Origin: a virus
Length of the DNA stretch: 22,797 bases
Virus record (IMG/VR): IMGVR_UViG_3300025669_000722
Span: 1 to 22,797 of that record
Direction: 5' to 3' (one strand)
Shown here: positions 7,043 through 22,797 of the stretch, piece by piece
Position numbering within the stretch: the stretch's first letter is position 1
Layout of the letters: each line of letters starts with the position of its first letter
The notes under the pieces: generated by a model
Seen by the model: the letters and a program-made list of their open reading frames with translations, nothing else
What the model was told of the DNA's origin: nothing
The model's database searches: none
Position numbers and translations under genes: made by a program

Positions 7043-7237
7043 ATGTCAAACATGATCTATGAGAACTTCGGATTATCACCTGATGGAATCTTTGGACTGA
7101 AGATTGAAGTCAGACCTGCAGGAACAGGGATCACACCTATTGATTCAACAACTGGCAAAAGATTGTCAAGACCACAGATGGAACATGCCAAGACTGAACC
7201 TACCCAGGATGCAGTCAGATCGGTGGTGACATCATGA
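7043..7237 (+). CDS. Small 64-aa protein coupled to the head-fiber gene
   Basis: Unrecognised 64-residue protein (MSNMIYENFGLSPDGIFG...). AAGGGG lies upstream of the ATG, and the stop TGA lies inside an ATGA overlap with the 998-aa gene. Codon use matches the CpG-poor background. It has no membrane segment or metal motif. Confidence 0.65.
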   Translation: MSNMIYENFGLSPDGIFGLKIEVRPAGTGITPIDSTTGKRLSRPQMEHAKTEPTQDAVRSVVTS

Positions 7238-10230
7238 CAATGTCAGGCTATTTAGATTCAAGAGAATTCCAGAAGTTTGTTGAAGATGCACTTGGACAGA
7301 CTGCAATCAGGGTTCTGCTTTCAGGCAGTTCTTCCCTTGACAACTTGACCATTGGGACAATGTTGTATCAGTCCACTGAAATAGGAATAACTGCATCAGT
7401 CACACAGACCCAGGGACAGGGTGCCCTGACTAAGATGATCAACCAAGTTTCAGTTGTTGCCAATATAGATGACACAGTGACCCTGATGTCTGCCGTTGCA
7501 GGTGCAATGCAGTTGGTGATTAATGATGGCGACAACACAATGCAAATATTCCCTGCATCAGGTGACAACCTTGGTGAAGGTTTGAATATCCCCATCAGTC
7601 TTCAGGCAGGTGGAAGGGTTCGCTTTGATGCCTATGATGCAACCCATTGGGTGAAGGCAGGTGACATCAATGTTGAAGTTGAAGTGGGTTCAGGCGGCTC
7701 CGTAGCAGTAATCGAAGATGTAACAAGTCCAACTCTCGCAATTAGCGCATTGGGGAAGCTGTTTGATAAGAATGTGCTTTTGAGGACAGGGGATGATATT
7801 ACAGGGACAGCTACATCCACAAACTATGGTGATAAAAATGCAGTTACTGGTGGTGATGTTGTATTGGGAGCAGTAAATCTAAAAACTAATGGTATTACAG
7901 CAGGTACAGGAGGTCTATTCCTCCCTGCCGTCCCAAATGCGATTGCTACTATTTCATTTGGTATTGGAATTGATAAAGACACTGCTCTTGGAATGCAATA
8001 TGATTTAGATACAACTGGAGTCGTAGGTACTGAAGGTGCTATAAGGACTTATGATTCTATCTCAATAGGTGCTGAAACCGTTCTTTATGATATTGCAATC
8101 TTCAACCTAACCTCCCTCGGAACCCTAACAGCCGACCACGTTCAGATGATGAATGACTTGAACACGCTGTATGATTGGACAGCCTTTGCAGGCTCGGGAG
8201 CAGGTGGTATTCTTGATACAACTGATACTTGGGCATTGATTGGTACATGGATGGCAACTGAAGCAGACCGTGAAGCGTTCTTCGCCATTGTAATCCCCTC
8301 ACACGTTAGCAGTATGGACTCAGCTAAACTTGAGAGCATTACTAATATGGGTGGGAATTTAGCGGTGCTTAAAAATTCCCGATTTAGCTCATTAGCTGGC
8401 ACAACTGCCAGTGGTGTTATGATTAATATTGAAGATGGTTTAAATGTCTCGAATACAGTCGCAGGTACTTCCGAAGGTGTCTATGTAGACTATGCTATAA
8501 ACCCAAATACCGAATACTACCTTGGCTTTATTATGGGGGTAGTTACAGGAGAATCTCGTATAATCATCAGGTCACTTGACATAAATGGTGATATTGTTGC
8601 GACATTGTCCTCTCCTACTGTATCAGGTAATTATACGTTCACCTCAGATAGTGAAATATATAGCTTACGCCTCCAGTTTTATTGCACAATAGGTGCATCG
8701 GCACTTGGCTCAGTAAATTATACCAACATCCAACTCAACCAAGGCTCCACCGCAAACACCTACGCCACCCCACTTGATAATGGGATTACATTTGGTAGCC
8801 GTAGTGCGAATCAGTTGCCTGATGGTGATGCTGAGTATGATGGCTCTAAATGGGCAGGCGTGGCAATCATATCAACCAATCTATCTATTGTTGCCTTTGC
8901 CTCACAAGATACGATAACATCCTTCACCCCTCAGAATAGTGGATGGCATACCTTTGCATGTCGCAACCTTACGAGTGATGCAGGGACAGTCTCAGGCATA
9001 CTCAATGGCGTGACAGCAGGAGCCATTGCAGGAAACGCATCTCCCGCTTGGTCAGTTGACAAGGTTGAACTTGTTGCAGGCACAGCCTATGACTTTGAAG
9101 TTCGTGGTTCAGCAGATGACATCCAGTTCGATGCTATGATTATTGAAGGTGAATATACTCAGGCAGAGATTGACACGAGAGATTATGTAGCATACAAACC
9201 CCTTGAGCTATTGACTTGCCCAAACAACGCAGGGACTTCCACAGTCTCAGACGAATTGATTTCAATCAACGGTGTGCCGAATATTCTGCATAACGTTACT
9301 GATAATCGGACTGATAGTGGTGACCCTGAATTAGATACTACACTTGTCGCTCCCCCTGGAGATTTAATGGCTTCAGATGGTACAGCCAACTTCACAGATG
9401 AGAATGGTGCATTAACATTCGATACCGACCATTACGTTTATACCGTAACAACTGGAGCAAGCAAAGCGGGGTTCCTCGATGAAGGAACATTTGTTGTAGA
9501 CCGTAAATACATCGTTAGCGTTCTCGCCAAAGATGGGACGGGCGCAGGTGCTTCATTCAGAGTTAATCAACTTACCAACGCAGGGGCGGTCATTACAAAT
9601 GGTGCAACTGTTGTAGCCACCGCCGCTTATGGTCAGGCATTTGTCGAGTTTATTGCCACAGAGACAAACAATAAAATAGAGGTGGAGATTATCGCCGCTT
9701 CTGTTGCAGATGGCGAGACAGTCCTTTTTGATGACTTACTTGCTTATGTTTATAACATCCAAGAGAACCTTGCTCCCAATCTGGAAGACATCTCCGCTTT
9801 CTGTAGTGGCAGTCTAATCCAAGAGACTACTGAGGGACAGAATCACATTGTCTCGGTCAACGGACTCATGTTGAGTGTAGTGCATTATCAGGGCGTGCAG
9901 GGTGCTATTGATGGCACCAGGGAAGGTCTGCTTTCCAAGTTGAACAGGTCAGAACAAAGATTGACCTATGAATTCAAGGTTCCTTCAACAGGTGGTGTTG
10001 CTGCCAATTCAAATACATGGGTGCCATTCAGTGACATTGCAACCATGCCTGATCTTGTCAGCAGCATCAAGACCCTTGAAGAAACAATGGACACAAACAT
10101 TGATTCAGTGGATTACTATGACAATGGAATAGTGATCAATGCTGATGCCACTGGAACAGGTGCCGACGATGTCCTTGTTCATGCCTTGGTCATCAGTGGT
10201 GTTCCACTAATCATCCACACAATTGCATAG
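7234..10230 (+). CDS. Probable head fiber / decoration protein with carbohydrate-binding-like repeats
   Basis: 998 aa, the largest gene in the window. Residues ~1-150 form a beta-rich anchor (ITASVTQTQGQGALTK..., MQIFPASGDNLGEG, DAYDATHWVKAG), a pattern seen in phage virion proteins. After a GSGGSV linker come at least three jelly-roll-like units: around 380-510, ending TNIQLNQGSTANTYATPL, like the '..QLE.GS.AT.Y..' end of phage carbohydrate-binding modules; around 520-660, ending DAMIIEGEYTQAEI; and around 710-880. A native-type C-terminal domain (~889-998) closes it. Its place straight after the capsid genes suggests attachment to the head rather than to the tail tip, but a tail fiber placed out of order is possible. 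The middle has different base and codon use. An in-frame ATG at 7240 is an alternative start. Confidence 0.7.
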   Translation: MTMSGYLDSREFQKFVEDALGQTAIRVLLSGSSSLDNLTIGTMLYQSTEIGITASVTQTQGQGALTKMINQVSVVANIDDTVTLMSAVAGAMQLVINDGDNTMQIFPASGDNLGEGLNIPISLQAGGRVRFDAYDATHWVKAGDINVEVEVGSGGSVAVIEDVTSPTLAISALGKLFDKNVLLRTGDDITGTATSTNYGDKNAVTGGDVVLGAVNLKTNGITAGTGGLFLPAVPNAIATISFGIGIDKDTALGMQYDLDTTGVVGTEGAIRTYDSISIGAETVLYDIAIFNLTSLGTLTADHVQMMNDLNTLYDWTAFAGSGAGGILDTTDTWALIGTWMATEADREAFFAIVIPSHVSSMDSAKLESITNMGGNLAVLKNSRFSSLAGTTASGVMINIEDGLNVSNTVAGTSEGVYVDYAINPNTEYYLGFIMGVVTGESRIIIRSLDINGDIVATLSSPTVSGNYTFTSDSEIYSLRLQFYCTIGASALGSVNYTNIQLNQGSTANTYATPLDNGITFGSRSANQLPDGDAEYDGSKWAGVAIISTNLSIVAFASQDTITSFTPQNSGWHTFACRNLTSDAGTVSGILNGVTAGAIAGNASPAWSVDKVELVAGTAYDFEVRGSADDIQFDAMIIEGEYTQAEIDTRDYVAYKPLELLTCPNNAGTSTVSDELISINGVPNILHNVTDNRTDSGDPELDTTLVAPPGDLMASDGTANFTDENGALTFDTDHYVYTVTTGASKAGFLDEGTFVVDRKYIVSVLAKDGTGAGASFRVNQLTNAGAVITNGATVVATAAYGQAFVEFIATETNNKIEVEIIAASVADGETVLFDDLLAYVYNIQENLAPNLEDISAFCSGSLIQETTEGQNHIVSVNGLMLSVVHYQGVQGAIDGTREGLLSKLNRSEQRLTYEFKVPSTGGVAANSNTWVPFSDIATMPDLVSSIKTLEETMDTNIDSVDYYDNGIVINADATGTGADDVLVHALVISGVPLIIHTIA
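7690..9897 (+). other. Compositionally foreign segment inside the head-fiber gene
   Basis: By hand count about 74 CpG dinucleotides occur in 7681-9900 (29 in 7681-8700 and 45 in 8701-9900), against 4 in the preceding 480 bases, 2 in the following 360, and 8 in bases 1-1000. Codon choice changes too (CTC, CGT, TTA, ATA, GAG and GTA become common). The left edge falls at the GSGGSV linker codons and the right edge near 9897, so the swap keeps the N-terminal anchor and C-terminal domain in frame. This is best explained by recombinational exchange of a receptor- or glycan-binding core. Confidence 0.7.
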
Positions 10231-10316: not shown

Positions 10317-10514
10317 ATGAAAGTCACATTCAACAAGAAGACACATGAAGCAATCAAGCAGGAAGATGGAAGACTGACTTCCAAAGATGGGAAGTTGTTC
10401 TTTGGTTTTGGCATTGGAAACCTTGTGAAGGGTGTCAAAGAAGTCATTGAAGAAGTACCAGTGCAAGAAGATGCACCTGAACAGGGCACTGAAAATGATG
10501 CATCACCTTCTTGA
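10317..10514 (+). CDS. Small 65-aa acidic-tail protein
   Basis: Unrecognised. The N-terminus is basic (MKVTFNKKTHEAIKQEDG), followed by a Gly/Phe segment (LFFGFGIGNLVKG) and an acidic Glu/Pro tail. GAGGAAAGG lies upstream of the ATG. Its end overlaps the start of the next (membrane) gene by 20 bases, placing it in the same unit as the lysis-like cassette. Confidence 0.6.
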   Translation: MKVTFNKKTHEAIKQEDGRLTSKDGKLFFGFGIGNLVKGVKEVIEEVPVQEDAPEQGTENDASPS

Positions 10515-10821
10515 CATACTGATTCAGAGCAAGTTTGTGAAGTTCGCCCTGTGTGGTAACGTGTGGATATGGTTTCATATCCTAGCTGCTGCCTTTGGTA
10601 CCAGATTATTTTTACTTAAATTCTCACAGAAGGTGACCATGTTGATTGTATCAGCAATTGTTCTTCTGTGGGAAGTGTTTGAAGTTGTTGTTGGTGGTGA
10701 TCTTGCACAGACGTATGGATCACTAGAACGATATTTTTACGACACAGCAGGGGACATCATTGGTGCAATGGTGGTGTCTGTCATAATCATATCAGTCTTA
10801 TGGGGTGAAAAAAATGGATAA
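10495..10821 (+). CDS. Small integral membrane protein (holin candidate)
   Basis: 108 aa with three hydrophobic segments at about 16-40, 47-62 and 86-103 and a charged C-terminus (WGEKNG). The ERYFYDTAGDIIGA stretch between helices resembles VanZ/DUF2238-like membrane proteins. Start chosen at ATG 10495 (or 10498 in ATGATG) because CAGGG lies eight bases upstream; the longer frame from 10432 lacks a Shine-Dalgarno and runs deep into the previous gene. It is the first of several membrane proteins before an endolysin, so a holin role is plausible, though a VanZ-like envelope function is also possible. Confidence 0.65.
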   Translation: MMHHLLDILIQSKFVKFALCGNVWIWFHILAAAFGTRLFLLKFSQKVTMLIVSAIVLLWEVFEVVVGGDLAQTYGSLERYFYDTAGDIIGAMVVSVIIISVLWGEKNG

Positions 10822-11104
10822 CACTGAACGGATATTGAATGAGATTGGGAAAGTGAATTCAACCTTGACCTTGATCCAGGTTGATCATGGGAAGCTTGCT
10901 TCTGCAAATCTGGAACAACACAAGTCAATGAATGCAGTTATCACTGACTTATCTGAAAAGATAGGTGACCAGAATGGAAGGGTGAAAGCTTTGGAAACAT
11001 TCAAGACTGTGATCCTCACAAAGATCAAGGTTATCCCTACAACAATCTCAGCAATCTTTGGTGCAGCCACAGTTGCAGTGACAATGTATTTGAGAACAAA
11101 ATAA
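10814..11104 (+). CDS. XhlA-like membrane-anchored coiled-coil protein (lysis accessory)
   Basis: 96 aa. A polar helical region (about 1-75, heptad-like, VKALETFKTVI) is followed by one C-terminal membrane segment (VIPTTISAIFGAATVAVTMYL) and a short basic end. This is the layout of hemolysin XhlA-type proteins, which often sit beside holin and endolysin genes. ATG 10814 is preferred, with GGGGTG upstream and an 8-base overlap with the preceding gene; a GTG at 10805 would add three residues. Its function in lysis is inferred from layout and neighbours. Confidence 0.6.
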   Translation: MDNTERILNEIGKVNSTLTLIQVDHGKLASANLEQHKSMNAVITDLSEKIGDQNGRVKALETFKTVILTKIKVIPTTISAIFGAATVAVTMYLRTK

Positions 11105-11115
11105 AAGGAAACAAC

Positions 11116-11526
11116 ATGAAACACTTTAAAAGCTTATTGATCTTATTGATGGTGCTGATTGCAGTGCCTGTCCTTTCAGCAGACCTGGAAACAGTTGGGG
11201 GTTTCCTTTCCACTGTGGGTGACATTCTAAGCAACACCAAAGTTCTTTCTGTGGCAGGCATACTGTCTGCAGCTTCAGCATACTTCTTCAGAAATGTTGA
11301 TGTTGAACAACTGAGAAGAACAGGTTCAAGACATGGGTTCCTGGGTGGTAGGTGGTTGTCAATCAAAGCAACTGCAGTCCCTGGATTCGGAACAGCATGG
11401 ACAATGATTGTGGAAAAGTGGGTTGCTAAGTTGTGGACATTGCTGACTGCATACTTGATCAGCGTGTTCATTGGTTTCCCTGTTGGTCTTGCCAGTGACA
11501 ACAACCAGAAGGAACCAGAAAAATAA
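11116..11526 (+). CDS. Secreted/membrane protein of the lysis cassette
   Basis: 136 aa, not recognised. It begins with a clear signal-peptide-like region (MKHFKSLLILLMVLIAVPVLSA, possible cleavage after SA at 22). Two further hydrophobic stretches lie at about 46-60 and 105-125, with a basic patch between them (LRRTGSRHGFLGGR). AAAAGGAAAC is the Shine-Dalgarno. The stop overlaps the endolysin ATG (TAATG). A holin, antiholin or envelope-disrupting role is possible; no spanin lipobox is visible. Confidence 0.6.
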   Translation: MKHFKSLLILLMVLIAVPVLSADLETVGGFLSTVGDILSNTKVLSVAGILSAASAYFFRNVDVEQLRRTGSRHGFLGGRWLSIKATAVPGFGTAWTMIVEKWVAKLWTLLTAYLISVFIGFPVGLASDNNQKEPEK

Positions 11527-11933
11527 TGTCCAGAAGACAACAAGAACAGTGGGCATACCTTCAGGATGAAGCAAGGTTTGTCATGTTCATTGCTGCATCG
11601 ATATACACTGCCATTGGTGGTGAACGTCAAAGGTCTTATGCTGAACAGCAAAGGAAGTTTGATGCAGGGTTGTCAAAGGCAAAGGGTGGTCAGGGGCAGC
11701 ATGGGAAATGCAAAGCATCCGACTTTGAATTCTTTGATGAAACAGGTGCCTGGTTGAAGGTTCCTGAAAAGAGGGAATATTCAACCATTGAAGATTATGA
11801 CATTGCAGTTGAAGAACACAAAGCCAAGATCAAACCATTTGGTGATCATTGGGAAAGTCTTGATCCTAAGAACTTTTGGGGTGGGAACATAAAGGGTCTG
11901 TATGATCCTGGTCATATAGAAAGAAGGGACTGA
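11526..11933 (+). CDS. Endolysin, M15-type peptidase (T5 L-Ala-D-Glu peptidase-like)
   Basis: 135-aa zinc peptidase predicted to cut the peptide stem of peptidoglycan at host lysis. GGERQRSYAEQ (31-41) matches the R-S-x-x-x-Q start of the M15 core. H59 and D66 form the H-x6-D zinc motif (GQHGKCKASDF), and LYDPGHIE supplies D127 and H130. This is the same layout as the zinc ligands H66, D73, H133 and catalytic D130 of T5 endolysin. WGGNIKG precedes it as in that family. The single compact domain has no signal peptide, so export would need a holin, consistent with the upstream membrane genes. All catalytic residues appear present. Confidence 0.88.
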   Translation: MSRRQQEQWAYLQDEARFVMFIAASIYTAIGGERQRSYAEQQRKFDAGLSKAKGGQGQHGKCKASDFEFFDETGAWLKVPEKREYSTIEDYDIAVEEHKAKIKPFGDHWESLDPKNFWGGNIKGLYDPGHIERRD

Positions 11934-11935
11934 AC

Positions 11936-12925
11936 ATGTCAGTGACTTACTGCACAGCAACAAATCTTGTTGAACACTTTGCCAGGATTGATGACTATGA
12001 TCTGAAGATCAAGTTGGATGACTATAAGTTTGTCAATCATGCAGGGAACACCTGGAAGCTTCCCAACAGTGGAAGTGTTCTGAACCTGTATTTGAATGGG
12101 GCAGATCAGGGTGCTGCAGCTGCTTCACTGGTTGCACTGTCAAGTGATTATGATTGGTTCTATGATAGCACACTTGATGTCCTATACATTCTATTTGCCA
12201 CAGGTGATGTGCCAACTGACAATTCATGGAAGATTGAATCAGCACCCTTTGATTCAGCAGATGCCAAAACAGCAGCAATTGCACATGCATCAGAGATGCT
12301 TGAAAGCATACTTGACAGCAGGATTCCCAGACCTATTCCGAAGACTGCACAGGGCAAGACTTCAGGTGTTTACTATGACTATTGGGTTGTGATGTCATGT
12401 GCATTGCTGGCATGCTGGCACCTCGTCAGATCAAGCTCACCTGAATCAGCAGATGTCACATTCCTTCTGGATCAGATTGGTTCAGTGATAGGTGGTGATC
12501 CTGATGCAAGGGGCATTGTTGACAAAATCAATGATGGTTCAATTAAGCTTTCATTTGAGCAGACCAGATCAGATCAGGCATGGGTTGACCAGGGTGTTGT
12601 TGGAGCAGACACCACAGGGTTTCTTGCAGATCCTGTTGGTGAATCCACACCTGATTATGAAGTCTACATTGTGACCATTACAGGCACAGGGACTTTGGCA
12701 ATGGGAACATTGAATTCCACCTTGAAGTATTCAGTCAAGGATTCACAGAACAACACAATCCAGGATGCAACATTGATCACAGGATTACAGCAGGCTATTG
12801 GTGGGGGTATCACATGCAGGTTTGCTGAAGGGAAATATAACGCAGCAGATATATTCATGCTCACAGTTCAGAATGTTGGGGTTAATACTTCTGTGCTTGG
12901 TGTGGTGAAAATAAACAGGCGATAA
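11936..12925 (+). CDS. Head-tail adaptor / neck protein with C-terminal beta domain
   Basis: 329 aa. The central part (SADAKTAAIAHASEMLESILDSRIPRPIP, then YYDYWVVMSCALLACWHLVRSSSPE) resembles the helical bundle of DUF1320/gp36-type and HK97 gp6-like connector proteins that sit under the portal. The N-terminal ~85 and C-terminal ~90 residues are beta-rich extras, making it longer than usual adaptors (100-150 aa). AAGGGAC precedes the ATG. It is the first neck gene after the lysis cassette and is followed by a tail terminator-like gene. Family call moderate, neck role likely. Confidence 0.65.
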   Translation: MSVTYCTATNLVEHFARIDDYDLKIKLDDYKFVNHAGNTWKLPNSGSVLNLYLNGADQGAAAASLVALSSDYDWFYDSTLDVLYILFATGDVPTDNSWKIESAPFDSADAKTAAIAHASEMLESILDSRIPRPIPKTAQGKTSGVYYDYWVVMSCALLACWHLVRSSSPESADVTFLLDQIGSVIGGDPDARGIVDKINDGSIKLSFEQTRSDQAWVDQGVVGADTTGFLADPVGESTPDYEVYIVTITGTGTLAMGTLNSTLKYSVKDSQNNTIQDATLITGLQQAIGGGITCRFAEGKYNAADIFMLTVQNVGVNTSVLGVVKINRR

Positions 12926-13360: not shown

Positions 13361-14371
13361 ATGGCAGCAGTTGATGTCAATACTTACAGCATGAAGGAAT
13401 TTCAGTTTGCAGCGAAACCTGAAGCTGAAATTGGAACCAAACTTGTCACAGCAATGCAACTGCTGAACCTGAATGGTGATGTAACAATTGCAAAGGAAGT
13501 TGTGCAAGACACCACACAAAGAAGTGGGAAAGGAAGGACACTGAAGGCAGCAGATGTCCACACCACAGACAAGGGTGGACAGAGAACTGTCATCACAGTC
13601 CCAATCATCCTTGACACCACAGTTGATGCAATGCTGCATGAAGGGGTGATGTGGGAAGCAGTTGGGGTTTCACCTGCATCACATGACATCATTTACAGCT
13701 ATGCGCCTGTGTCACAGAAACATGGTGACACACCTGACAGGGCAAATGACACATTCACTTGTTGCTTGATCAGTCCCATCACAGATGAATCAAGATATTG
13801 GGTTGGGGTTGTTCCTGAATCGATGACTGTTTCAATGGAAACAGGGGCAGATGGTGGAAGAAGAACAGCAAGCATTACCTTTGTGACAGCATACAGGGAA
13901 CTTGATGCTGCTGCTGCACCAACAGGAATGTCAGTCTATGGTGCTACTTTCCGTTATCTCTATGACTACACAACCAAGAAGTCTGTTGGTGGTGATGATA
14001 TTATTCCCAATAAAATTGAATACACAATCAACAATCCTGTGTCCTTCTCAGGTTTTCAGGGTGCCAGTGGTGATCCTGAAGTCATATCAAGGGCAGTCAA
14101 TGGTGGCAGAGTTGAAGTCAACATCATGGTTGGTGTGAAATATGATTCCAACACTGCTGAACATTGGGAGAATCAAAGGGATGGTGACATCTTTGCACTT
14201 GAATTCAGTGACAATGCAACATGGGCAAGTTCAACCTTTGGAATCAAGGCCGCATATTGCAAACTTGATTCAGCACCAACCCCAGGTGACACAGAAGCAG
14301 GTGCATTCCAGGATCTGTCCTTCATGTGTACTGGTTCAACAACAGGTGACTTGATTCAGATAGTGCCTTAA
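13361..14371 (+). CDS. Major tail (tube) protein
   Basis: 336 aa, beta-rich. Forms the stacked rings of the tail tube around the tape measure protein. Evidence: position between the terminator-like gene and the tail assembly chaperone; Thr/Ser/Val-rich strands (RYWVGVVPESMTVSMETGADGGRRTASITFVTAY is typical of tube proteins); GAAAGGGA upstream of the ATG. At 336 aa it is longer than the ~200-aa minimal tube, so an extra domain is likely, perhaps the C-terminal ~130 residues. A stem-loop follows the gene. Confidence 0.75.
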   Translation: MAAVDVNTYSMKEFQFAAKPEAEIGTKLVTAMQLLNLNGDVTIAKEVVQDTTQRSGKGRTLKAADVHTTDKGGQRTVITVPIILDTTVDAMLHEGVMWEAVGVSPASHDIIYSYAPVSQKHGDTPDRANDTFTCCLISPITDESRYWVGVVPESMTVSMETGADGGRRTASITFVTAYRELDAAAAPTGMSVYGATFRYLYDYTTKKSVGGDDIIPNKIEYTINNPVSFSGFQGASGDPEVISRAVNGGRVEVNIMVGVKYDSNTAEHWENQRDGDIFALEFSDNATWASSTFGIKAAYCKLDSAPTPGDTEAGAFQDLSFMCTGSTTGDLIQIVP

Positions 14372-20235: not shown

Positions 20236-20274
20236 ATGATCAGGAATCAATCTAATCAAAAGGAAGACTCATGA
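20236..20274 (+). CDS. Possible 12-codon leader ORF coupled to the ERF gene
   Basis: ATG 20236 opens MIRNQSNQKEDS and stops at a TGA that shares bases with the ERF start (ATGA). It has its own Shine-Dalgarno (AAAGGAAGA at 20221-20229) as strong as that of ERF (AAAAGGAAGA), directly after the 3' arm of the stem-loop. Translational coupling or a regulatory leader is possible. Chance is the alternative at this length. Confidence 0.35.
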   Translation: MIRNQSNQKEDS

Positions 20275-21155
20275 CAACAAAAACAATTCAAGAAGCATTG
20301 GGTGATATTCAAGTCAATATGAAGGCACCCAAGACCCAGGTGAATGACTTTGGTGGTTATTCATTCAGGTCTGCTGAAGACATCTTAAATGCTGCAAAAC
20401 CTTTTATCAAGAAGCATAAATGCATTCTATTATTGAATGATGAATTGGTTCTAATGATGGACAGGTTCTATGTCAAGGCAACTGCCAAGCTGATGAAGGG
20501 TGAAGAATCAATCAGTGTTGATGCATTTGCAAGGGAAACAGAAAATAAGAAGGGCATGGATGAAGCACAGATCACTGGTTCTGCTTCTTCATATGCAAGA
20601 AAGTATGCACTGAATGGACTGTTCTGCATTGATGATGTCAAGGATGCTGACAACCATGACAACAGTGATCACACACCAGCACCCAAGAAGCAACAGAATA
20701 GCACACAGCCCCCTTCAGGGTCTTCAGGTTCCATTTCAAGAGATGACTTCCCTGGGTTTGGTAAGCACAAACAAGGTGGTGATGATCCAAAGATGTGGAA
20801 GGAAGTGCCCAAACATTATCTTGAATGGTTGTCAACTGCTGACAAGACCAGGGATGATGTCAAAGCATTTGTGATTGCTGAACTGAAATTCAGGGCAGAA
20901 GACCCACCTGCACCAAAGGTGTCAATGGCAGATAAGATTGCAGCATTTGAAACCATATTGAATGGTGCTGAAAAAGAATTTAGCAAGGCAGAATTGTTTT
21001 CAACCTTCTCAAGTTTCTTGATGAACGCATTCAAGACCACAGACATTCCAAACATTGCAGTTGAATTTGTTGAACATGCAGAAGCAATCCACCAGGATCT
21101 TCTGAACCTTCTGAAGCAAGAGAAGGCAGCACTTAAAGCAGGGCAAGATGACTGA
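20271..21155 (+). CDS. erf: ERF-family single-strand annealing recombinase with C-terminal ExoX-C-like motif
   Basis: 294 aa. Anneals complementary single strands in phage recombination. The ERF core is clear: YSFRSAEDILNAAKPF (30-45), DRFYVKATAKL (64-74), ISVDAFARE (81-89), KKGMDEAQITGSASSYARKYALNGLFCIDDVKDAD (93-127), all conserved positions of the family. After a polar linker (~128-157), FPGFGKHKQGGDDPKMWKEVPKHYLEWL (160-187) matches the FGKHKG...W.EVP..YL.WL motif of ExoX C-terminal-like/DUF3820 domains. A helical tail (215-294) may oligomerise or bind a partner. It is the first gene of the non-structural block. It has the lowest CpG seen (1 in 885 bases). Confidence 0.9.
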   Translation: MTTKTIQEALGDIQVNMKAPKTQVNDFGGYSFRSAEDILNAAKPFIKKHKCILLLNDELVLMMDRFYVKATAKLMKGEESISVDAFARETENKKGMDEAQITGSASSYARKYALNGLFCIDDVKDADNHDNSDHTPAPKKQQNSTQPPSGSSGSISRDDFPGFGKHKQGGDDPKMWKEVPKHYLEWLSTADKTRDDVKAFVIAELKFRAEDPPAPKVSMADKIAAFETILNGAEKEFSKAELFSTFSSFLMNAFKTTDIPNIAVEFVEHAEAIHQDLLNLLKQEKAALKAGQDD

Positions 21156-21351
21156 TTGCAAGCACCTGAACTTCACACCCATTGAACACTATGAAGATTC
21201 ACAGCAATGCAAGGAAGGGTTCAGGGTTGTCAGGATGCACCAGTGGAAGTGTGATGACTGTGGTGCTATCTTAAAAAGTTGTGTTGAACGTGATGCTGTC
21301 CACAGTGGCAGGGCAATAGATGACTATTGGGGTGTGACGTATGAAACCTAA
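21148..21351 (+). CDS. Small Cys-rich protein, zinc-binding candidate
   Basis: 67 aa. C4-x-H6, C21, C35-x2-C38 and C45 could make a zinc-binding knuckle (KCDDCGAIL is a typical zinc-ribbon half). It overlaps the ERF gene end by eight bases (ATGACTGA), so it is co-translated. Function unknown; a DNA-metabolism accessory role fits its place. Confidence 0.65.
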   Translation: MTDCKHLNFTPIEHYEDSQQCKEGFRVVRMHQWKCDDCGAILKSCVERDAVHSGRAIDDYWGVTYET

Positions 21352-21661
21352 ATATAATTTTATGGAAATTCTCGGAGTAAGACAGCCTGAAGAATTTGGT
21401 CAGGTTGTAGAAGATAAGTGGGTGCTCGATGAATGGTATGAATACTTTGTTAATGAGTGGTTGCCAGAGCAGGGCGAAACTGATATGATATTATTTATCG
21501 AAGCAGGGTTTGACACTTTTGTATATTTCGCATTTAAACTGAAGGCCATTGATAGGATTACCCACAAAAAGTTAATTGATTTATTATTGAAGGGGTCAAA
21601 GTTCAAACCAGAAGAAGTCGAAAATGTCAAAAAAATGAGGGCTGAATTATCTGATGAATGA
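21341..21661 (+). CDS. Hypothetical 106-aa protein with atypical composition
   Basis: Not recognised. Acidic, aromatic-rich and helical (KWVLDEWYEYFVNEWLPEQGE). It has six CpG in 321 bases against one in the 885-base ERF gene, and more TTA, ATA and GAT-type codons, so it probably entered recently. GGGGTGA lies just before the ATG, and it overlaps the previous gene by 11 bases and the next by 8. There is no membrane segment. Confidence 0.6.
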   Translation: MKPKYNFMEILGVRQPEEFGQVVEDKWVLDEWYEYFVNEWLPEQGETDMILFIEAGFDTFVYFAFKLKAIDRITHKKLIDLLLKGSKFKPEEVENVKKMRAELSDE

Positions 21662-21869
21662 GCAGCAGAAAGAACAAGCAAAGAAAGATGTCAAGCACTA
21701 TGCAGGTCTCGCACTTATGGGATTTATTTCAGCAGAAGCAAACAGACCCAGGGGTCTTGAACTTGATGCAGTCGCAGATGCTTCAGTTGAAATGGGAATT
21801 GCAATGGTGCTTAAACTTCACAGCAAACCAGTGCAGGTAATGCTTGCAAAACGGCTTGCAGATTTGTAA
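21654..21869 (+). CDS. Hypothetical 71-aa helical protein
   Basis: Not recognised. Polar start (MNEQQKEQAKKDVKHYAG), then Ala/Leu/Met-rich helices (LALMGFISAEANRPRG, VEMGIAMVLKLHSKPVQVMLAKRLADL). It begins inside the end of the preceding gene (ATGAATGA). The stop overlaps the third AT-rich palindrome-like site. It is probably soluble. Confidence 0.6.
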   Translation: MNEQQKEQAKKDVKHYAGLALMGFISAEANRPRGLELDAVADASVEMGIAMVLKLHSKPVQVMLAKRLADL

Positions 21870-21879
21870 TATATTCTAA
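21868..21879. promoter_or_regulatory. Third copy of the AT-rich motif
   Basis: AATATATTCTAA is identical to the right 12 bases of the 20127-20142 palindrome, and the surrounding 17 bases match at 15. It overlaps the stop codon of the 71-aa gene. A perfect -10-like TATAAT follows at 21883-21888 but without a convincing -35 at 16-18 bases. Confidence 0.4.
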
Positions 21880-21910
21880 TCATATAATTTCATTGGAAAG
21901 GAAGACCAAT

Positions 21911-22294
21911 TTGAAATTTCCGTTCATGCCAATCAAGGTTGGCGATTTAATCACAGACACACAGGAACTGACTGACACTGAATTTGGTGTCTACATCAGA
22001 CTACTTCTGAACCACTGGAAGAAGGACAGCATCCCTGCTGACCCTGCCAGGATGTCAATGATTGCACCTTCTGCTGAAGTTGTGTGGGAATCATTGGAAG
22101 AATTCTTTGAACCACATCCAACCAATCCAAAGCGATTGATCAACACCACTGCCTTGAAAGCAAAGGACAGGGCAAAGGATCTGACCAGAAGCAACAGAAG
22201 GGCAGCTTGGGTCAGGTGGCATTCAGGGGAACCTTATCCTGAAGACATTGCAAACTATGCAGGTGAAGTTGCAGGTGGTGATGCAGATGCATAA
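21911..22294 (+). CDS. DUF1376 (YdaU-like) protein, replication-associated
   Basis: 127 aa. MPIKVGDLITDTQELTDTEFGVYIRLLLNHWKKDSIPADPARMSMIA fits the DUF1376 pattern (F/M-P...GDxxxDTxxLs..E.G.Y.RLL...W....Lp.D...la.i). Members occur in phage replication regions, often next to or fused with helicase-loader-type domains; the biochemical role is unsettled. The start is TTG 21911, with GGAAAGGAAG upstream; the upstream TTG at 21893 precedes this Shine-Dalgarno. Basic C-terminus (RSNRRAAWVRW), then an acidic Gly/Asp tail. It is probably an N-terminal-type domain acting alone. Confidence 0.78.
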   Translation: MKFPFMPIKVGDLITDTQELTDTEFGVYIRLLLNHWKKDSIPADPARMSMIAPSAEVVWESLEEFFEPHPTNPKRLINTTALKAKDRAKDLTRSNRRAAWVRWHSGEPYPEDIANYAGEVAGGDADA

Positions 22295-22306
22295 CCGATT
22301 GAATAT

Positions 22307-22335
22307 TTGATTGTAATACCAATGATAATTATAAT
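22307..22335 (+). promoter_or_regulatory. Sigma-70-type promoter before the Imm5-like gene
   Basis: TTGATT (22307-22312), 17-base spacer, TATAAT (22330-22335): a perfect -10 and a 4/6 -35 at ideal spacing. The -10 lies within the palindrome AATTATAATT (22327-22336), which could be an operator. The transcript would carry a leader of about 100 bases with a stem-loop. Confidence 0.65.
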
Positions 22336-22391
22336 TAAAACCATAAGCATATTTATAATGAAAATCAAAATCATGCAATTAAGAAAAACAA

Positions 22392-22428
22392 GCCTGACCG
22401 AACTGCACCCTGAAGGGTTCAGTCAGGC
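22392..22428 (-). terminator. Stem-loop with T-rich tail on the minus strand
   Basis: GCCTGACCGAACT (22392-22404) pairs with GGTTCAGTCAGGC (22416-22428) with one mismatch and one wobble. The minus strand continues TTGTTTTTCTT, so it reads as an intrinsic terminator leftward. On the + strand it lies just before the Shine-Dalgarno AAAAGGAAGA, so it may instead act in the leader. Confidence 0.5.
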
Positions 22429-22445
22429 AGAAAAGGAAGAACAAT

Positions 22446-22797
22446 ATGAAACACATTGACAAATTAAACAAACTTGGTGCCTGTGGTCAAGCAGTCAAGT
22501 GGGCAAAGGAAATGAAGAACGGTCAATCAGCGTGGGATAATTGTGAACGTGGTGACTGGATGTTGTGGCTTGTGGGCAAGATGTCTGGGAAACCTGAATC
22601 TGCAAAGCGGAAGAAATTAGTTCTTTGTGCATGTGAATGTGCGAGGCTTGCTATGGTTCATGTACCCAAAGGTGAAATCCGACCACTAAAAGCAATTGAA
22701 ACAGCAGAAACATGGGCAAGGGGAGATGCCACAATCGAAGAGGTGAGAGTCGCTAGACGTGCCGCCTATGCCGCCGATGCCGCCGCTGCCGCCTATG
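22446..22797 (+). CDS. Imm5-like (putative immunity protein) gene, Ala-rich, 3' truncated by window
   Basis: Starts MKHIDKLNKLGACGQAV and runs off the right edge after 117 codons. GDWMLWLVGKM, KLVLCACECARLAM and GEIRPLKAIETAETWARGDATIEEV fit the pattern of proteins annotated as 'putative immunity protein' (Imm5-type), common as phage accessory genes and usually followed by Ala-rich repeats. Here the repeats begin (ARRAAYAADAAAAAY), written with GCC codons and dense CpG, unlike the GCA-rich, CpG-poor background. It has its own promoter and a leader stem-loop; AAAAGGAAGA is the Shine-Dalgarno. The real function in phages is unknown. Confidence 0.68.
   Translation, partial: MKHIDKLNKLGACGQAVKWAKEMKNGQSAWDNCERGDWMLWLVGKMSGKPESAKRKKLVLCACECARLAMVHVPKGEIRPLKAIETAETWARGDATIEEVRVARRAAYAADAAAAAY

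Follow-up and report, generated by a model that had tools for sequence, protein, structure and literature searches.

The exposed core of a surface fibre gene in this phage has probably been imported by recombination and joined to an N-terminal part specific to the phage's own lineage. The near-normal CpG and TpA content of the core, the blocks of almost the same DNA in a phage with a different backbone, and the absence of the core from a close relative all argue for import by recombination, as the preliminary description had proposed. The gene was analysed within a 22.8-kb virus record (the window, i.e. the whole stretch of 22,797 nucleotides). The comparison covered one close relative carrying the locus, contig G003 (IMG/VR 3300024259_000110), whose two ends are loci L004 and L008, and one donor-like phage, L002 (IMG/VR 3300031227_001269), the only relative of the core found at the DNA level. 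The features of the window are as follows; the major capsid gene was identified by PHROG 544 (E=7e-11).

7234..10230, + strand: surface fibre/decoration gene (predicted), whole ORF, 998 aa, situated after the major capsid gene
7234..7682, + strand: N-terminal part, CpG/TpA-poor (native); a stand-alone gene of L004 (142 aa) is the homologue of residues 1-139
7683..7797, + strand: block A, left edge of the putatively imported core, starting in a Gly-Ser linker; 110/115 nt identical to L002:10021-10135
7798..8101, + strand: divergent cassette between the blocks, ~40% nt identity to L002
8102..8168, + strand: block B, 66/67 nt identical to L002:10446-10512
8169..9303, + strand: remaining core, of foreign composition, with no clear relatives and no family match
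9304..9570, + strand: module (residues 691-779) common to a protein of a third phage, L003, 35% aa identity, E=4e-8
9897..10230, + strand: C-terminal part, native in composition (CpG 2 vs 17 expected) and without a match in the homology searches
20271..21155, + strand: ERF-family single-strand annealing recombinase (Pfam PF04404, E=9e-39; PHROG 155, E=1e-44)

Composition of the phage genome and the fibre gene

Outside the fibre gene (positions up to 21000), the observed/expected ratio of the phage is 0.11 for CpG and 0.33 for TpA, with CpA/TpG at 1.68, and both ends of the fibre gene show these backbone values. Positions 7690-9897 give 0.68, 0.90 and 1.27 for the three ratios. A 998-aa gene with CpG-poor ends and a CpG-rich middle had been described here before, and the 74 CpG counted by hand in 7690-9897 proved to be exact (Poisson p = 8e-30), while the depletion of TpA in the rest and its near-normal level in the core had been missed. 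Among the 16173 other placements of a 2208-bp segment in the window, CpG reaches at most 32 (mean 11) and TpA at most 87 (mean 59), compared to 153 TpA in the core. A two-breakpoint maximum-likelihood fit placed the edges of the foreign segment at 7695 and 9896, with ranges within 3 log units of 7392-8079 and 9698-10004. The fitted segment contains 74 CpG in 2202 bp, versus 129 in the 20595 bp outside, which by density is a 5.4-fold enrichment where about four times had been claimed. The break in composition is real and lies far beyond chance.

Codon usage is shifted as well, in agreement with the preliminary description. The mean -lnP per codon under the usage of the rest is 1.29 in the core, 0.86-1.05 in other genes and 1.01 at both ends, and the core has the most atypical codon usage of all segments compared. 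No shift of GC3 was found, the core having 0.36 and the other genes measured 0.35-0.46, so that the compositional shift concerns dinucleotides and codon choice and not G+C content. A GC or GC3 shift was rejected as a mark of the core.

The number of CpG expected per segment was calculated with the amino acids fixed, using the phage's codon usage and independent codon choice. Under this model native segments are strongly depleted, with 10 CpG vs 28 expected in the capsid gene, 8 vs 64 in a 705-aa gene, and 3 vs 13 and 2 vs 10 in the two ends of the fibre gene. In the core 74 were observed and 70 expected. Composition inside the core is uneven: cassette 7798-8101 is low in CpG (4 vs 11 expected) with normal TpA (29 vs 28 expected), and both are normal in 9301-9600, which suggests that the core may derive from more than one source.

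The window backbone holds 125 of 932 expected CpG and 544 of 1547 expected TpA, with CpA/TpG in excess, and over the 25.9 kb of the relative G003 (L004, L008) the counts are 22 of 1249 expected CpG and 363 of 1980 expected TpA. Candidate causes of this depletion are host composition, methylation, restriction and RNA decay; a literature search for earlier reports of CpG-depleted phages returned nothing relevant. Downstream of the ERF gene, in 21001-22797, CpG rises again to approximately 0.3-0.5 of expectation, although L008 is nearly free of CpG in the region homologous to it. A DUF1376 protein (Pfam PF07120, E=1e-9) is encoded at 21893-22294.

The ends of the fibre protein and the locus in a close relative

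G003 and the window share 82% amino acid identity in the capsid protein and 76% in a tail protein (window 13361-14371), and are collinear on both sides of the fibre gene with 67-71% nucleotide identity. Fibre residues 1-139 are 60% identical to L004:11412-11840, where the N-terminal part forms a complete separate ORF of 142 aa and the next gene encodes another, different type of surface protein (826+ aa). DNA homology to L004 ends at window position 7650 (residue 139) and returns only at ~10.5 kb, beyond the fibre gene. No trace of the window's core could be found at the G003 locus, where other surface modules take its place. These comparisons support residues 1-139 as native to the phage's lineage, and the distal parts differ after this conserved N-terminal part, as in mosaic receptor-binding proteins. 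Residues 51-139 also occur at the end of UOF80036 (49% identical), a hypothetical protein adjoining a tail-fibre gene of a Manatee Spring siphophage, which marks the N-terminal part as itself modular, judging by this match. A search of viral contigs with the N-terminal part alone, using exact 8-residue seeds, gave no confirmed matches; the viral-contig searches relied on exact short peptides, by which distant relatives are missed, and the 8-residue seeds missed even L004.

The surface proteins at L004 11837 and L008 281 start with a signal-peptide-like segment, e.g. MKRLLILSMLVTAGFGQ, which is unusual for a virion protein. Between the fibre and connector genes, the window (10432-11933) and L008 (2716-4207) encode small membrane proteins and a putative endolysin. 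On reading the sequences, the genes at the endolysin position (window 11526-11933 and L008 3809-4207) seem unrelated, and this position is perhaps a second exchanged site.

The C-terminal 111 residues have native composition, which sets in abruptly at 9896. A separate search for this part in viral contigs and the relatives gave no confirmed homologue, and the end of the L008 protein differs from it. A native origin is thus supported for the N-terminal part, 60% identical to L004, and the data fit both a replacement in which both ends are kept, as previously put forward, and a fusion. In such a fusion, an N-terminal gene that is separate in relatives would have acquired, in the same reading frame, a complete fibre gene of foreign origin, with the C-terminal part either joined separately or belonging to an older import already adapted in composition. 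The layout of L004, where an ORF of its own encodes the 142 N-terminal residues and another gene comes next, is in line with this course of events, as is the lack of a C-terminal homologue in the relatives searched, but the C-terminal part is fully native in composition and its edge is abrupt. We consider a fusion unlikely, though a serious competitor. If only the core was imported, as we prefer, the C-terminal part would have been retained rather than separately gained.

Relatedness of the core to a distant phage

L002 has a head-gene order similar to that of the window, with very different proteins: the aligned parts are 27% identical for the terminase, 28% for the portal and 23% for the capsid protein. 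Its composition is normal (CpG o/e 0.91, TpA 0.88). ORF 9848-10582 of L002 lies downstream of the capsid gene, as does the fibre gene in the window. The similarity between the two starts at the linker VGSGGS, at the composition edge, and the earlier placement of the left edge in a Gly-Ser linker was correct. Blocks A (110/115 nt) and B (66/67 nt), 96-99% identical, surround a cassette that is ~40% identical. At conserved amino acids, the synonymous codons of the window and L002 are identical in 52 of 56 cases within the blocks versus 8 of 26 between them (Fisher p=1.2e-8), so a single history of descent would need very strong constraint on the DNA of the blocks. The simplest reading of blocks and cassette points to recombination rather than plain descent; such constraint, without recent exchange, would be an unlikely alternative. 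Fragments of 96-99% nucleotide identity are thus shared by genomes whose backbone proteins are 23-28% identical, which is the pattern of mosaicism. The L002 contig ends just after block B, and the DNA-level donor match covers the left part of the core only. Of the three parts aligned separately, as had been recommended, the N-terminal part matched L004 and the middle L002, but the C-terminal part had no match.

Searches with the core in named phages, plasmids and bacterial and archaeal genomes gave nothing usable, with one weak match to Bacillus phage Stills (E=0.03), and no host was found by aligning the capsid protein to genome contigs. Among repeats at the junctions, only one 21-nt pair (81%) in the N-terminal part was detected. 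It was regarded as chance, and junction repeats were rejected as the cause of insertion. In L003, the protein after the one sharing the module (10577-11950) has a C-terminal stretch, YYWSGSSDAGVWGVGFGSTRGGSSSAVGFRAACY, which may resemble retroelement-diversified C-type-lectin targets.

Based on these results, the fibre gene would begin with an N-terminal part specific to the lineage and continue into exposed adhesion modules. The core, from 7683 to ~9896, would have come from phages with ordinary CpG and TpA content and been joined in frame at the Gly-Ser linker. The exchange most likely took place by homologous recombination at the short stretches of conserved DNA lying between divergent cassettes, and the phage's own ERF-type annealing recombinase probably helped. 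An ERF-family annealing protein is encoded in the window, and its presence makes it a candidate agent of the exchange. For Erf and its relatives, recombination in vivo works well even between diverged sequences (PMC3945230).

Gene versions in the relative and further alternatives

The two ends of G003 overlap at the surface locus yet disagree in sequence. The two versions are ~95% identical in the N-terminal domain. Beyond it, cassettes of ~45% are interspersed with blocks of 84-99% identity that measure 87, 152, 90 and 139 nt (138/139 identical in the last), a mosaic of the same kind as in the window's gene. This is most simply explained by a circularly permuted genome in whose assembly the two ends ran into different, coexisting versions of the gene, while one genome may instead carry tandem copies of the surface gene. 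These surface genes have 25 of 115 and 16 of 110 expected CpG, versus 22 of 1249 in the backbone, as expected for imported DNA that is partly adapted.

The blocks could also be standing recombination anchors of a cassette system common to distantly related phages. Short constant blocks would then be kept and divergent adhesion cassettes continually exchanged through them, one phage population holding many gene versions at once, as the two ends of G003 suggest. We advance this more extended scheme tentatively and consider it unlikely.

It is improbable that the assembler created the mosaic by joining reads of a CpG-poor phage and another phage. In favour of this, the sequence is a contig from a metagenome, relatives vary at this locus, and both the L002 and the G003 contig break off within the surface gene. 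But such a chimera needs two independent in-frame joins in an uninterrupted ORF of 998 codons, and genuine variation at this position is seen in the relative. The notion that nothing was transferred, and that amino acid content or local selection keeps the CpG and TpA of a native core high, has no specific support and is already largely refuted, since native segments fall far below the CpG number expected from independent codon choice, the core reaches it, and the near-identical DNA in L002 would be left unexplained.

Predicted function

The product of the gene is probably a virion-surface fibre or decoration protein, and the core is predicted to act in adhesion. Gene order, as the only basis, would place it on the head rather than the tail. 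The jelly-roll and carbohydrate-binding units proposed in the preliminary description could not be confirmed. No Pfam, PHROG or PDB sequence match was found for the core (in Pfam even at E 10 only noise), and two AlphaFold models (full length and residues 700-862) have a pLDDT of ~33. The sole lectin-like match concerns not the window's core but the relative's different surface protein in L008, with a Laminin_G_3 region (E=1e-5) just under the cut-off.

Comparison with known systems

As a rule, the foreign origin of a DNA segment in a phage genome becomes evident only once its donor has been found. Here the recipient's CpG and TpA depletion acts as a dye that reveals imported segments with a precision of ~300 bases, and from partial loss of this signal in relatives a chronology of imports could be drawn up. 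The locus offers a natural system for studying how, and how often, uncultured phages swap surface modules across distant lineages, and allows asking whether parts are joined time and again at short conserved blocks of DNA.

Diversity-generating retroelements also diversify phage surface proteins and keep the scaffold, but here whole cassettes differ instead of substitutions at adenines. No reverse transcriptase was found among the window genes scanned (part of the genes, the window being a fragment) and no long direct repeat was seen inside the fibre gene; retroelement diversification thus found no support in the genes scanned. With the Rad52-like phage recombinases, including Erf, this phage shares an encoded ERF protein and a mosaic with short high-identity blocks; the assays in that work were carried out in E. 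coli phages and prophages, whereas involvement is only proposed here (PMC3945230).

Recent shuffling of domains among the receptor-binding proteins of distant phages (tail fibres, spikes and neck proteins) is established (PMC10684548). The present case has in common with it the conserved N-terminal part with exchanged exposed modules and the apparently recent exchange between phages of different lineages. It differs in that the location on the virion (head or tail) and the ligand are putative here, and in that the recipient's extreme CpG and TpA depletion marks the imported DNA directly. Judged by its sequence, the fibre gene is a well-marked new example of this known module shuffling.
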